NCBI GenBank assembly: GCA_025965515.1
Contig: JAOPWU010000141.1
Location: 1 to 37,053 of the forward strand
Source: Mycobacterium sp.
GTDB taxonomy: Bacteria; Actinomycetota; Actinomycetes; RYN-182
Direction of reading: 5' to 3'
DNA length: 37,053 nucleotides
Shown here: piece by piece, positions 433 through 5,050 of the stretch
How the letters are laid out: every line of letters begins with the position of its first letter
Numbering within the stretch: the first letter of the stretch is position 1
The notes under the pieces: model-generated
The model's input: the letters and a program-made list of their open reading frames with translations, nothing else
Told to the model about the DNA's origin: nothing
The model's database searches: none
Position numbers and translations under genes: made by a program

Positions 433-1554
433 TCAGGCGCCGGCGCTCGCGGCCACGACGACCTCGTGCGGCAGGGGCTCGACCAGCGCGGCGATCCCGT
501 CGGCCAGCAGCGACGCGCCGTCGGGCACGGCTCGGCGGACCACCGCGAGCGCCACGGGACCCAGGTCGGCGTGCCGGACCGCCGGGCCGACCCAGCCCTG
601 CCGGCGCCCCTCGGCGTCGACCACGTCCGCGTGGCGCGCCGGGAGGCGGTCGACCGACCCGTCGAGCTGCAGCAGCACGGTCCGCCGCGGCGGCCGTCCC
701 AGGTTGTGCACCCGGGCGACGGTCTCCTGGCCGCGGTAGCAGCCCTTCCGCAGGTGCACCGCGGTGCCGACCCAGCCGGCCTCGTGCGGCAGGCTCCGGT
801 CGTCGGTCTCCTGGCCGAGCCGCACCAGCCCGGCGGTGATCCGGAGCGCCTCGAACGCCCACAGCCCGGCCAGGGTCGCCCCGGCGGCGCGCAGCTGCGC
901 AACCACGTCCGTCAGCCGGTCGCGCGGGACCAGCAGGTCGACGCCGAGCCCGTGCGGCAGGGCGCGGACCACGACGCCGCCGAAGGCCTCACCGGTCGCG
1001 ACCCCGAGCGCCGGGGTCACCGGCTCCTTGCCCAGCGGACCGGCCGGGCCGGGCACCGGCAGCCCCGCCGCAGCCAGCGTGGCGGGGGTCCCCGGACCGA
1101 GCAGCGTCAGCACCGCCCGGGTCGGGGTGGCGTCGGTGATCTCGACGGGGGTCCAGAACCGCATCCGCTCCAGGTAGCCGCGCAGTGCGTCCCCGGTCCC
1201 GGGTTCGACGTCCAACCACACCGTCGGCTGCTCCTCGCCCGGCAGCGGTGCCGCGTGGGCGACCACGAGGTGGTGCTCCACCCGGCCGTTCGGGTCGAGG
1301 ACCAGCGCCTGCCCGCCCGCGCCGACGGGCAGTCCCTCCAGGTACTGGCTGGTGATCGTGTGGAGCCAGCCGACGGTCTCCGTGCCGGACAGCGCCAGCA
1401 CCTCGCGCTGGGAGCGGTCCACCAGTGCGGTGCCCTCGCTCGCGGCGCGCTGCTCCGCCGTCGGGTCGCCGTAGTGCGCGGCCACCGCGGCATCGGGATC
1501 GTCGGCGGGCACCGCGCCGGGGAGCGCGAGCAGGGGGCTGGGGCGGGCGGTCAT
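433..1554 (-). CDS. ygfZ: YgfZ/GcvT-fold folate-binding protein
   Basis: A 373-residue protein of the YgfZ family, related to the glycine cleavage T-protein. Members bind folate and help assemble or repair certain iron-sulfur enzymes in the cytoplasm. The family signature K-G-C-Y-x-G-Q-E is present at residues 270-277, inside a run reading RKGCYRGQETVAR, and the Cys is kept. The N-terminal half carries the GcvT-like fold (DRSQREVLALSG, about residues 46-57). The ATG at 1554 overlaps the nur stop codon by 4 nt, which decides the start and implies translational coupling. Rv0811c is the mycobacterial counterpart by position and motif. Function is inferred from the family. Confidence 0.9.
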   Translation of the reverse strand: MTARPSPLLALPGAVPADDPDAAVAAHYGDPTAEQRAASEGTALVDRSQREVLALSGTETVGWLHTITSQYLEGLPVGAGGQALVLDPNGRVEHHLVVAHAAPLPGEEQPTVWLDVEPGTGDALRGYLERMRFWTPVEITDATPTRAVLTLLGPGTPATLAAAGLPVPGPAGPLGKEPVTPALGVATGEAFGGVVVRALPHGLGVDLLVPRDRLTDVVAQLRAAGATLAGLWAFEALRITAGLVRLGQETDDRSLPHEAGWVGTAVHLRKGCYRGQETVARVHNLGRPPRRTVLLQLDGSVDRLPARHADVVDAEGRRQGWVGPAVRHADLGPVALAVVRRAVPDGASLLADGIAALVEPLPHEVVVAASAGA

Positions 1555-2033
1555 GACCCCTGCAACGTCCGCGCAGCCACCGGCTCTTCCGTGGCACCGC
1601 CGGCGCGCCCTGCGCAGGCGGCGCAGAGTCCCGACAAGGAGACGTGTCCAGGGTCCAGCGTGAAGCCGTGCCGCTCGGCGAGCATCGCGGCGAGCGGCGC
1701 CACCACGTCGACGGGCTCCTCCTCGACGGAGCCGCAGGCGTGGCAGACCAGGTGGACGTGGGAGTTGCTGCCGGCGACGTGGTAGGTCGGCGCGCCGTGC
1801 CCCAGGTGGGCGTGCGTGACGAGGCCGAGCTCCTCGAGCAGGTCCAGCGTCCGGTAGACCGTGGAGATGTTGACCCCTGCCGCGGTGCTCTGCACGCGCT
1901 CGGCGATGGCTTCCGGCGTGCCGTGGCCCAGCGCGCTGACCGCCTCCAGGACGAGCTGCCGCTGGGGCGTCAGGCGGAAGCCGCGCGCGCGGAGCCGGGC
2001 CTGCCACCCCGGTTCCAGCTGGTCCGCACCCAT
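1551..2033 (-). CDS. nur: Fur-family metalloregulator, closest to nickel regulator Nur
   Basis: A 160-residue Fur-family repressor. The winged-helix recognition region is NISTVYRTLDLLEELGLV (residues 55-72). The metal/dimerisation half has His74-x-His76, His79, His85, the HVHLVC motif (92-97) and His130, with Cys pairs 97/100 and 137/140. The stretch from RLTPQRQLVLEAV through HAHLGHGAPTYH matches what I remember of Streptomyces coelicolor Nur, which senses Ni2+ and represses nickel uptake and a superoxide dismutase gene. His37, His74, His76 and His130 sit where the Nur metal ligands fall, but one upstream His of the second site is replaced (SNSHVH). Nur is therefore preferred over Zur or FurA, without proof. 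It overlaps ygfZ by 4 nt. Confidence 0.8.
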   Translation of the reverse strand: MGADQLEPGWQARLRARGFRLTPQRQLVLEAVSALGHGTPEAIAERVQSTAAGVNISTVYRTLDLLEELGLVTHAHLGHGAPTYHVAGSNSHVHLVCHACGSVEEEPVDVVAPLAAMLAERHGFTLDPGHVSLSGLCAACAGRAGGATEEPVAARTLQGS

Positions 2034-2096
2034 GCCGGGAGTCTAGGTCCCGCCACGGGGCGGCGGCGCCGCAGGAGCACGACGCGGCTACCGCCG

Positions 2097-3872
2097 TCAG
2101 GCGCCGTCGACAGGGCCGGACGGCTGCTCGTCCTCCCCCACGGGGTGCGTGCCGTTCGAGCTGGGCGTGTCGGGCAGTCGGATCTCCCGCCTGGGGGTGT
2201 CGGCCGTGAGGACCGGCCCCGCGAGGAGGGGGTGCTGCCGGCGGTGCGCCAGCGGGTTCGGCGGGAGCTGCTGATGGATCTCCGGCACCCGCTCCGGCTC
2301 CGGCTGCTCGCTGTGGGCCGCCGGACGCTCCTGGTACGCGGCGGGCCGCTCCGTGTACTCCACCGGACGCTCGGGGTACTCGTCGGGTCGCGGCTGCTCC
2401 ACCCACACCGGCTGGGGCGGCCCCTGCCGCGGCGGGTACGGCTGCTCGATCGGCTGGACGCGGGGCAACGTGACGACGTGCTGCCGCGGGGTCTCGCCCA
2501 GCTCCCCGTGGATCAGCGGGATGTGCAGGCGGTTCGGCGCGGTCGGGTCGACGGGCGGCCCGTCGCGCCGCGCCTTCTCACGCCGCGCCCAGTCGCCGGA
2601 CAGCGTGCACGCGAGCGCCGTGGTCAACGGCACGGCCGCCGTGAGCCCGATGCCGCCGACGAGGGCGCCCACCAGCTCGGACGCCACCGCGTCGTTGGTG
2701 GCGATGTCGTTGATGCTGAACCCGGAGATCGTGAAGAGCAGCAGGACGGGCAGCGCGCTGCCCGTGTAGGCCAGTGCCAGCGTGTAGACCGTGGACGCGA
2801 TGTGGTCGCGTCCGACGCGCATCGCAGACTGGTAGCGCAGCCGCCAGGTCGCGGACGGGTCGGCGGCGGTGATCTCGTAGGCGGCGCTGGCCTGGGTGAC
2901 CGTGACGTCGTTGAGCACGCCGAGGCTGCTGATGACGAAACCGGCCAGGGTGAGCCCGCCGATGCTCACCCGGGAGGCGAGGTCCGACAGGTTCGGCTGA
3001 TCGCCGCCCGAGAGACCCGACAGGTGCGTGAAGCTCTCCGCGACCGTCGCCAGCACGCCCACCAGGCCGAGGCTGACGAGCGTGCCGAGCAGTGCCGTGC
3101 TGGTACGAACCGTGAAGCCGTGGGCCACGTACAGCACCACGAACAGGATGGCGGCCGACCCGACCAGGGCCACCTCCAGCGCCGGCTTGCCCTGCAGCAG
3201 TGCCGGCAGCACGAACTTGGCGATGAGCACGCCGGCGAGGACGAGGCCGATGAGCGCCGACAGGCCCCGCGAGCGGCCGACGAGGATGACGACGGCGGCG
3301 AAGACGATGCCCAGCAGGGTCAGCGGCAACCCGCGGGCGTAGTCGGTGAAGTAGTACTGGCTGCTGCCGGCGGCCTGGGTGTCCGCGCCGGTGAGGGCGC
3401 GGCCGAGGCGGATGGACTGCCCCGGGTGCAGATTGGGCGACAGCGGGCCGTCCTGGATCTCGAGCACCGTGAAAGAGCTGCGGTCGGGGCCGGACTCGAT
3501 GGCGACGATGGCCTTCTGGCAGGCCTTGCTGCTCGGGCCGGAATGCGATTGCACGCTCGCCGCCGCGTTCACGGTCGTCGCCGTGTAGATCTGCCCGGCG
3601 GTGTCGTCCGTGCTCGGGCAGAAGCCCTTGTTGATGGTCTGGACGCTGCCGGACTCCTGGAACACGGGTGCGCCGCTGCTGGCCGTCCCCGTGACGTGCT
3701 GGATGTGGCCCGTGGGCCACAGGTATGCCAGCCCTGCGACCGTCACGAGGAACAGCAAGCCGAGAACTCCGAACAACAGGCTCCGGGCACGCTGAGTGAC
3801 ATTTGGGGGCTCGGTATAGGTCGTCGTGCCGAAGGCAGACGGACCCTCGAGAAGTGAAGGGCTGGGCGTCAC
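2097..3872 (-). CDS. YibE/F-family membrane protein
   Basis: A polytopic membrane protein of the YibE/F family; the biochemical role is not established. An N-terminal membrane helix (SLLFGVLGLLFLVTVAGLAYL) leads to an extracytoplasmic domain of ~120 residues, then about seven hydrophobic segments. The conserved core SLGVLNDVTVTQASAAYE is typical of the family. The C-terminal ~150 residues are hydrophilic and hold imperfect repeats (EYPERPVEYTERPAAYQERP) plus a Pro-rich tail, probably disordered and cytosolic. I chose the GTG at 3872. An in-frame GTG at 3908 adds 12 residues but has no ribosome site, and an inverted repeat lies directly behind it. The gene stands alone between nur and the 3.9-4.4 kb region. 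Confidence 0.75.
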   Translation of the reverse strand: MTPSPSLLEGPSAFGTTTYTEPPNVTQRARSLLFGVLGLLFLVTVAGLAYLWPTGHIQHVTGTASSGAPVFQESGSVQTINKGFCPSTDDTAGQIYTATTVNAAASVQSHSGPSSKACQKAIVAIESGPDRSSFTVLEIQDGPLSPNLHPGQSIRLGRALTGADTQAAGSSQYYFTDYARGLPLTLLGIVFAAVVILVGRSRGLSALIGLVLAGVLIAKFVLPALLQGKPALEVALVGSAAILFVVLYVAHGFTVRTSTALLGTLVSLGLVGVLATVAESFTHLSGLSGGDQPNLSDLASRVSIGGLTLAGFVISSLGVLNDVTVTQASAAYEITAADPSATWRLRYQSAMRVGRDHIASTVYTLALAYTGSALPVLLLFTISGFSINDIATNDAVASELVGALVGGIGLTAAVPLTTALACTLSGDWARREKARRDGPPVDPTAPNRLHIPLIHGELGETPRQHVVTLPRVQPIEQPYPPRQGPPQPVWVEQPRPDEYPERPVEYTERPAAYQERPAAHSEQPEPERVPEIHQQLPPNPLAHRRQHPLLAGPVLTADTPRREIRLPDTPSSNGTHPVGEDEQPSGPVDGA

Positions 3873-3911
3873 GCGGTCAGCCTGCCGTGACGGGCGTCTC
3901 CTTTCCACATG

Positions 3912-3929
3912 GCTGAGAGATATCTCAGC
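3912..3929. promoter_or_regulatory. Inverted repeat GCTGAGA-N4-TCTCAGC, possible operator of the YibE/F gene
   Basis: Perfect 7-bp arms (3912-3918 and 3923-3929) with a GATA centre, nested around the palindrome GAGATATCTC (3917-3926). A further GCTGAGAG half site lies at 3989-3996. It sits just upstream of the YibE/F coding region. A dimeric repressor site is one reading and a small RNA hairpin in the leader is another. No regulator is assigned. Confidence 0.4.
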
Positions 3930-4096
3930 TTTGCAGGCTGCAGATCGGAGAAATCAGCACTTCATATCCCCTTATTCGCTGACATCACGCTGAGAGGACA
4001 TTCCGGTCGTCTCTCCGGCGGCGCCCGCCCGGCGGGGTCCGGGGCGCGGCCGCAGGCCCCCCGGGCGTCTCGGTCGGAGCTGTGGGGGTTATCCGC

Positions 4097-4125
4097 ATGA
4101 CAAGGCGTCAGCCGTGACGTAGCGT
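4097..4125 (+). promoter_or_regulatory. Candidate promoter of the small transcript
   Basis: ATGACA (4097-4102, one mismatch to TTGACA) and TAGCGT (4120-4125, matching the actinobacterial TAnnnT -10) are separated by 17 nt. This predicts a start near 4132 on the plus strand. The same TAGCGT appears as a candidate -10 at 13840 before pstS. Confidence 0.45.
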
Positions 4126-4128
4126 TAC
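4114..4128. promoter_or_regulatory. Near-consensus BldD-like site over the -10 of the small transcript
   Basis: GTGACGTAGCGTTAC matches the remembered BldD consensus nTnACnC(A/T)GnGTnAn at every fixed position but one (T where C is expected at position 7). It covers the candidate -10 box, which suits repression. The last eight bases (AGCGTTAC) are identical to the full-consensus site before the BldN-like gene at 32803-32817. Confidence 0.35.
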
Positions 4129-4159
4129 AGGAAACACGGGAGAGGAGGTGGTCCGGAAC

Positions 4160-4204
4160 ATGGTTGGTAGTACTTCTGGGACGCGAGAGGTGGCTGTCCG
4201 CTAG
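4160..4204 (+). CDS. 14-residue ORF with an extended ribosome-binding site
   Basis: Encodes MVGSTSGTREVAVR followed by TAG. The upstream GGAGGTGGTCC (4144-4154) can pair with the 3' end of 16S rRNA over about 11 positions, counting one G-U pair, far more than at neighbouring genes; the GGAGG core ends 11 nt before the ATG. Codon use (GTT, GGT, AGT, ACT, TCT) is unlike the GC3-rich genome, which suggests that the RNA sequence itself is constrained or that fast initiation is selected. It could be a leader peptide or a free micropeptide. I know no function. Confidence 0.4.
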   Translation: MVGSTSGTREVAVR

Positions 4205-4337
4205 CCGCTGGTCCTGATCCTCGGTCGACACCCGCCGGGTGTCCCCGTCTCCCCGCCGTGTGGGGTTGGCGCAGCACCCCGGCAGCTAGACCGCGACAGA
4301 CGCCTGATCCCCCGGCCCCGTCCTTCGTCCAGACGGG

Positions 4338-4361
4338 CCCCGGCTCCCACGGGAGCCGGGG
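4338..4361. terminator. 11-bp hairpin between the small transcript and the nitrobindin gene
   Basis: CCCCGGCTCCC (4338-4348) and GGGAGCCGGGG (4351-4361) are perfect complements. No T-run follows on either strand, as is common in high-GC actinobacteria. It can end the plus-strand small transcript and the minus-strand nitrobindin mRNA, whose stop codon is about 50 nt away. Confidence 0.65.
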
Positions 4362-4409
4362 AAGTGCCGGGGGATCGTCTGTGCCCGCAGCCGGACCGAC
4401 CGGGGCAAC

Positions 4410-4946
4410 TCAGTCCTTGGTCGTGCCCCGCGCGGAGAAGCCCACGACGCCCGAGCCGGGCACCCGCTCCAGCTTCGCCGAGAAGTGGGGCTGCAGCGGC
4501 TGGCCCATCATCGCCATGTCCACCGCGTACATGAGCGCGCCCTCGACCAGTCCGTAGAGGCGCCGGGAGGCGGTGACCTCCTTGGCCGTGGCCGACCGCA
4601 GCACCGCGTCGGTGGCCATCTCGAGCTGGGCGCCGCTGATCCGCCCGAGGTAGAGCTCGGCGATGCCGGTGGGGTGCACGAGCAGCACCTCGAGGCTGTC
4701 GTCGGGCTGCGGCCGGAAGTACCCGGTCTCCGCGGCCATCGGCTCGCCGGTCGCGGGGTCCCAGGTGCGGGACGCGTACGCGAGGAAGGCTTTGCCGGAG
4801 TGCCCGAAGGTTATCTCCTGGGCGAACGCCCGGTCCTCACCGATCGTCGGGTAGCCGACGACGCCCTCGCCGCGCCAGGTCCCCAGCAGGTAGATCAGGG
4901 GCAGGACCGCGGGGTGCAGATCCGGGTCGGCTTCGGGCTGGGACAC
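4410..4946 (-). CDS. Nitrobindin-like heme-binding beta-barrel (FABP family)
   Basis: A 178-residue protein of the bacterial nitrobindin family. Members hold heme in a ten-stranded barrel and isomerise peroxynitrite to nitrate. The family signature G-x-W-x-G-x-G is seen as GTWRGEG near residue 25. The heme-ligand His is kept near the C-terminus in QPHFSAKLER. Rv0813c is the positional and sequence counterpart. The GTG at 4946 was chosen because it lies 2 nt after the stop of the 33-residue membrane protein and has GAAGG about 12 nt upstream; a longer frame reaching 4997 would run through that gene. A 178-residue length is slightly above the usual ~160-165. Confidence 0.85.
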   Translation of the reverse strand: MSQPEADPDLHPAVLPLIYLLGTWRGEGVVGYPTIGEDRAFAQEITFGHSGKAFLAYASRTWDPATGEPMAAETGYFRPQPDDSLEVLLVHPTGIAELYLGRISGAQLEMATDAVLRSATAKEVTASRRLYGLVEGALMYAVDMAMMGQPLQPHFSAKLERVPGSGVVGFSARGTTKD

Positions 4947-4948
4947 GG

Positions 4949-5050
4949 TCAGTGCTGGCCTTCGTACAGCTTGTAAATGACGTAGCCGGTGAACCACGCG
5001 GTGAGCACGGACACCAACACGAGCAGCGAGATCCAGAACGTTTCCGCCAT
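4949..5050 (-). CDS. 33-residue single-span membrane protein
   Basis: A short ORF from the ATG at 5050 to the TGA at 4949. It begins MAETFWISLLVLVSVLTAWF and ends YVIYKLYEGQH, so nearly the whole chain is one membrane helix (residues 5-27) with a short polar tail. Its stop lies 2 nt before the nitrobindin GTG, and GAAGG inside its last codons can serve as the nitrobindin ribosome site. The two are therefore probably translated as a pair. The close packing and clean helix argue for a real gene. It might anchor or recruit the heme protein at the membrane, which is inference. It is easily missed by gene callers. Confidence 0.6.
   Translation of the reverse strand: MAETFWISLLVLVSVLTAWFTGYVIYKLYEGQH

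Follow-up and report, generated by a model that had tools for sequence, protein, structure and literature searches.

A stand-alone Ms_IGR-5-related RNA gene with a conserved small ORF that ends in a covarying hairpin: a candidate translation-gated regulator in actinobacteria

The window, that is, the whole 37,053-nt stretch of Mycobacterium sp. DNA analysed here (assembly GCA_025965515.1, contig JAOPWU010000141.1), carries on its plus strand a diverged homologue of the actinobacterial small RNA Ms_IGR-5 (Rfam RF02471), in the gap between a YibE/F gene and a THAP4/nitrobindin gene (4410–4997), both on the minus strand. From comparative sequence analysis, we consider it somewhat probable that this is a stand-alone Ms_IGR-5 sRNA gene with a translated ORF and a covarying hairpin (P1/P2), acting as a translation-gated regulatory RNA. 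The support for homology and for translation is good; the mechanism is our inference. The family itself was known; the conserved ORF, helix P1 and the use of the ORF end and stop codon as a conserved structural strand are new. A sequence-only reading of this DNA had described a self-contained unit around a 14-codon ORF that may be a micropeptide mRNA or a dual-function sRNA, and that description stands; its statement that no described family was known does not, as RF02471 matches.

The promoter, extended Shine-Dalgarno (SD), 14-codon ORF, hairpins and terminator stem are found, in sequence and fold, where that reading had put them. The element continues, however, to ~4376, and the ORF end with its stop codon falls within a long-range hairpin. 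The features of the window copy are as follows.

4097–4125, plus strand: promoter, with -35 ATGACA (4097–4102), 17 nt and -10 TAGCGT (4120–4125)
~4132–4134, plus strand: predicted transcript start, placed from the promoter
4134–4140, plus strand: conserved RNA 5' end ACACGGG, the first Rfam model positions, conserved in 137 loci
4144–4154, plus strand: extended SD GGAGGTGGTCC, near-invariant across homologues
4160–4204, plus strand: ORF MVGSTSGTREVAVR, 14 codons and stop (ATG 4160, TAG 4202–4204), identified by frame conservation
4187–4192, plus strand: SD-like GAGGTG, codons E-V, invariant, 6 nt ahead of the last sense codon
4189–4198, plus strand: 5' strand of helix P1, GGTGGCTGTC, in the final ORF codons, covarying with 4295–4304
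4201–4289, plus strand: hairpin P2, stem 4201–4211/4279–4289 with the stop codon inside (predicted fold)
4295–4304, plus strand: 3' strand of helix P1, GACAGACGCC, in the 3' module, covarying with 4189–4198
4306–4376, plus strand: terminator-like structure, outer stem GATCCCCCGG/CCGGGGGATC at 4306–4315/4367–4376 (predicted fold)

The arrangement goes beyond chance: the fold of the window RNA beats its shuffles (z = -3.1), and promoter hexamers, SD, start, frame, stop and 3' module occupy fixed positions across 137 loci. The extended SD, which in the family measures 11–14 nt, would pair with 16S rRNA; the 16S end, sought as an anti-SD check, was not found in the draft assembly of the window. 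The strong SD claimed earlier is present and near-invariant in homologues, but its 11 nt are not rare in themselves, as GGAGGTGRTCC occurs 12 times in the window genome and its reversed control also 12 times, so rarity alone is no argument. The structure at 4306–4376, where no T-run is present, probably ends transcription, judging from its predicted fold, and may also serve the convergent nitrobindin gene; the RF02471 model likewise closes with a long G+C-rich hairpin.

RF02471 matches 4134–4277 with 37.4 bits (E 5.8e-7, model positions 1–184, its full length). The match appears by E-value, and a search of the window against Rfam at the gathering threshold (45 bits for this family) gave none; the window copy is therefore not a formal Rfam member, and we term it a diverged homologue. 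Its relatives bridge the gap. blastn with the element gave matches in 182 of 394 class genomes, the best with 84% identity over 75 nt (E 1e-16, locus L034), and this relative scores 66.8 bits against RF02471, above the cut-off, as do all 14 relatives tested (66.8–139 bits). A covariance model built from 39 relatives, the window copy left out, recovered the element with 68.9 bits (E 9.3e-18) as its sole match in 37 kb. The window copy also keeps the family order of ACAC, SD, GGAC, GAGGTG, hairpin, 3' module and G+C-rich terminator hairpin, and it corresponds to Ms_IGR-5 over the whole length, from the ACAC 5' end through SD, ORF region, hairpin and 3' module to the terminator. It differs in its score below the Rfam cut-off, a longer ORF, two additional inner hairpins within P2 and a changed bulge. 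Taken together, the Rfam match, the relatives that pass the cut-off and the window-free model make homology to Ms_IGR-5, as judged from sequence, practically certain.

With a model that includes the window copy, the element was detected in 132 of 198 class genomes and in 120 of the 174 good ones (~69%), as a single copy in 131 of the 132 genomes with a match. The exception, G084, has two copies, C110:2693-2840 and C118:70163-70295 (L122). The Rfam model also matched 57 of 296 genomes from other classes of the phylum, and relatives include Mycobacterium, Streptomyces and Frankia. Conservation beyond close relatives, on which the earlier reading had staked its case, is therefore found. A viral origin of the element was considered and rejected, since viral contigs contained no exact match to its pattern.

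Ms_IGR-5 was reportedly first described from Mycobacterium smegmatis, by Li et al. in 2013 (RNA 19:74). Published data show that Ms_IGR-5 is transcribed in S. lividans (PMC8079986), that in S. avermitilis it is a separate sRNA transcription unit (PMC8780764) and that its RNA is detected in M. smegmatis (PMC10454040). Ribosome reads were found on it in M. abscessus and M. smegmatis, and the M. abscessus authors caution that such reads may stem from other RNPs and not from translation (PMC4974804). Rfam types the family as an sRNA without an ORF, and in its model the SD and the ORF end are the two strands of stem 1. In the open-access literature, a scope outside which Li et al. 2013 falls, we found no report of the ORF or of P1 in Ms_IGR-5.

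The surroundings of the element indicate a transcription unit of its own. A TANNNT -10 begins 21–24 nt ahead of the SD (119 matches in the 137 loci) and is placed at SD-22/-23 in the conserved promoter; homologues also have a TTGAC-like -35 (-47 to -45), preceded by an A-rich patch (-54 to -51). A crude gene finder placed the nearest gene downstream on the strand opposite to the element in 76 of 132 loci and on its own strand in 56. Its family varies (nitrobindin in 8 of 42, PNPOx in 7, NAD-dependent DNA ligase in 4), and no fixed downstream gene emerged from the survey of 137 neighbourhoods, which makes a cis-acting leader unlikely. Upstream and divergent, YgfZ is found in 32 of 137 loci and Fur in 22; two loci from another class share YgfZ at this place, pointing to an ancient arrangement. 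The proposed adjacency to nitrobindin holds, as a convergent neighbour, in the window and in 22 of 137 loci, but it is not general. Sequence comparison across these loci shows the element to be independent of its neighbours and probably its own transcription unit. As a separate observation, a Fur/YgfZ/nitrobindin/DsrE neighbourhood surrounds the RNA in about one quarter of the loci (window 433–4997, L085, L088, L093-L152).

More than 200 copies of the element were compared overall, and the ORF was assessed on 137 distinct elements extracted from the fetched loci by a pattern without a frame condition. The frame test asked for an ATG, GTG or TTG within SD distance that shares the frame of the ORF end and stays open through it. 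All 105 Actinomycetes copies have such a canonical start, against 1 and 0 in the other two frames, and the result is the same when they are collapsed to 50 dissimilar copies (50 of 50 in frame; 1 and 0 in the others). One stop codon position is kept in 104 of the 105, and over all classes the stop lies exactly 15 nt past GAG in 134 of 137 loci, as TAG (119), TGA or TAA. ORF length is 12, 13, 14 or 15 codons (12 in most copies, 14 in the window) and shifts by whole codons only, with differences in the spacer compensated. A DNA pattern yielded a second set, 80 loci from named species, of which 79 were in frame against 11 and 7 in the other frames; this set overlaps the first in clades and so serves as a check, not as an independent phylogenetic sample. 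In locus L055 (1501-1570), the conserved stop is changed to TGG, and the ORF runs five codons longer to a TGA.

Start codons are more varied than the frame. TTG is used in 54 of 134 ORFs. Outside Actinomycetes, a canonical in-frame start is present in 16 of 32 copies, with frame and stop kept; when the near-cognates CTG, ATT, ATC and ACG are allowed, 30 of 32 are in frame, against 4 and 3 in the other frames. These codons occupy the sites of ATG or TTG in sister sequences, as in ISESLFGTLEVTGR vs MNDSLFGTLEVVGR, and comprise ATT/ATC (L153, L154, L156, L157, L163, L086), CTG (L085, L088, L091, L159, L161, L165, L166) and ACG (L083). Their position suggests that initiation takes place at near-cognate codons in other classes.

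Constraint is uneven along the ORF. The peptide consensus is (W/R/G)-T-R-E-V-(A/T)-x-(R/S), and GAG GTG (E-V) is found in 134 of 134 ORFs with zero synonymous changes, so that peptide and bases are both invariant. The T residue is kept through all four ACN codons. The mostly synonymous change expected by the earlier reading applies to the T-R-E codons (dN/dS ~0.18) but not to the N-terminal ones, which are loosely constrained (dN/dS ~0.65) and prefer codons ending in T (299 of 600); both dN/dS values are rough, being based on few codons and nearest-neighbour pairs. Given the start-to-stop frame conserved across so many copies, the RNA is very probably translated, and the comparison strongly supports conserved translation of this ORF, with which the published ribosome reads (PMC4974804) agree. 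The peptide may be a by-product or may act near the ribosome.

The final ORF codons, GGTGNCTGNC, are complementary to the 3' module, GNCAGNCACC, 96 nt away in the window. Over 136 loci, native combinations form 616 upper-helix pairs, whereas reassigned modules give a mean of 521 and a maximum of 541 (0 of 1000 reassignments reaching the native value). In the 40-sequence subset alignment A4, the nine pairs of P1 are 97.2% intact and contain 27 compensatory changes against 3.4 when shuffled (0 of 500) and 0–6 in slid controls. Kinship among sequences can inflate such shuffle results, but the changes fall in several separate clades. Examples of native pairs are CTAC/GTAG (L066), CCATC/GATGG (L130), TTGCG/CGCAA (L135) and CCGTC/GACGG (L123). 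Stem 1 of the Rfam model shows zero compensatory change in A4. P1 is absent from that model, which aligns an inner hairpin of the window copy with its own 3' part. P1 was also missed when RNAalifold was applied to the alignment of the whole phylum, in which MAFFT displaces the 3' ends of copies from other classes; P1 was scored instead by anchored counting and on A4. On this covariation, we have very little doubt that P1 exists.

In the window copy, P2 is predicted to stack on P1, giving one long hairpin that buries the stop codon. Folded alone, 4184–4304 reaches -55.4 kcal/mol, whereas the full-length minimum-energy fold favours a different pairing for the ORF region. P1/P2 lies within the predicted fold of five named species, where the hairpin has -38 to -49 kcal/mol. 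P1 begins ~23–29 nt past the start codon, and its 3' strand carries CACC. Covariation and position show the last four codons and the stop codon to be the 5' side of a long covarying P1/P2 hairpin formed with the conserved 3' module. Most copies (L034-L172) keep a GAAUCC-like motif in the 3' module, in the unpaired stretch that separates P2 from P1, which a protein may bind; the window copy has ACCGC in its place.

These elements suggest a mechanism in which a ribosome would load at the extended SD, read the ORF and thereby have to melt P1/P2. Near the stop codon it would cover the 5' strands of both helices, so that the 3' module would be accessible only during reading of the ORF. The freed, CACC-bearing module could then pair, either in trans or within its own leader, with SD-like sequences that contain GGUG, and when translation ceased P1/P2 would close and mask it. 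The 6-nt spacing between GAGGTG and the last sense codon could let a ribosome with the stop in its A site rebind GAGGTG, so that a pause at this point is possible. That the gating of the 3' module by translation is the function of the RNA is, on the modelled structure, a tentative proposal. The weak constraint on the N-terminal codons counts against the favoured reading, as do the competing full-length fold of the window copy, its loss of the GAAUCC bulge and the caution on ribosome reads. Such a stable hairpin (-38 to -55 kcal/mol) might also make a ribosome stall ahead of the stop and remain closed. Still more tentatively, the RNA may be a phylum-wide translation sensor whose ORF serves to let ribosomes at its end and stop codon open a dedicated helix and thereby turn a trans-acting, anti-SD-like module on or off; downstream genes would play no part, and starts might be any of several near-cognates of AUG.

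Other readings fit part of these data. If the micropeptide were the product, the RNA would be a tiny mRNA in which P1/P2 only stabilizes the transcript or tunes translation; the conserved frame, start, stop and T-R-E-V, together with the low dN/dS over T-R-E and the T kept through its four codons, are what such an mRNA would show. The N-terminal codons are nevertheless free to change, GAG GTG is invariant at synonymous sites too, which fits RNA pairing, and starts that are only near AUG in some copies are odd for a peptide-only mRNA. We therefore regard this as unlikely, although of real weight. An ordinary non-coding sRNA that pairs with its targets through the 3' module, the ORF being incidental, would agree with the Rfam type and with the conservation of 3' module and terminator; the frame counts of 105, 1 and 0, three different stop codons at one position and length changes by whole codons contradict it. 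At sequence level the purely non-coding reading is largely refuted, and we give it very little credence.

The extended SD could also, with a weak start and a stable hairpin, hold a ribosome or 30S subunit, so that the RNA would titrate or sense free ribosomes without pairing in trans. The invariance of both the SD and the second, SD-like GAGGTG, the distance of P1 from the start codon, the hairpin stability in named species and the published ribosome reads (PMC4974804) point in this direction. Such a trap would, however, require extreme abundance from one gene per genome, and it needs no fixed stop, yet the stop is kept; we judge it rather improbable. An attenuator or leader of the downstream gene is suggested by the short ORF, the hairpins and the terminator-like stem, but the downstream gene is not fixed, most neighbours lie on the opposite strand, and nitrobindin is convergent in the window. 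No conserved, co-transcribed downstream gene was found, and this candidate, the least probable of all, was rejected on its neighbourhoods.

The translation-gated regulatory RNA that we favour has partial counterparts among known systems. Leader-peptide attenuators, which include uORF-controlled terminators, share with it a short ORF whose translation would alter the fold of the RNA; unlike them, the element has no fixed downstream gene. Dual-function sRNAs such as SgrS/SgrT and SR1/SR1P are likewise stand-alone small RNAs that combine a conserved ORF with another conserved part of the RNA. The element differs from them in an ORF of just 12–15 codons, whose end and stop form a strand of a conserved helix. 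Dual-function sRNAs served as the comparison class (PMC11133741), and the element would rank among the most widely conserved candidates for such RNAs in actinobacteria. An RNA present in about two-thirds of the good Actinomycetes genomes sampled had a family entry and no assigned function; a conserved ORF that ends in a covarying hairpin would turn this orphan non-coding RNA into a concrete candidate for a translation-dependent regulator, and P1 offers a corrected structure model for Ms_IGR-5. Elsewhere in the window, an ORF at the contig edge (3–431, plus strand) contains AERATAERAAAQR-type repeats and is probably the end of a coiled-coil protein.
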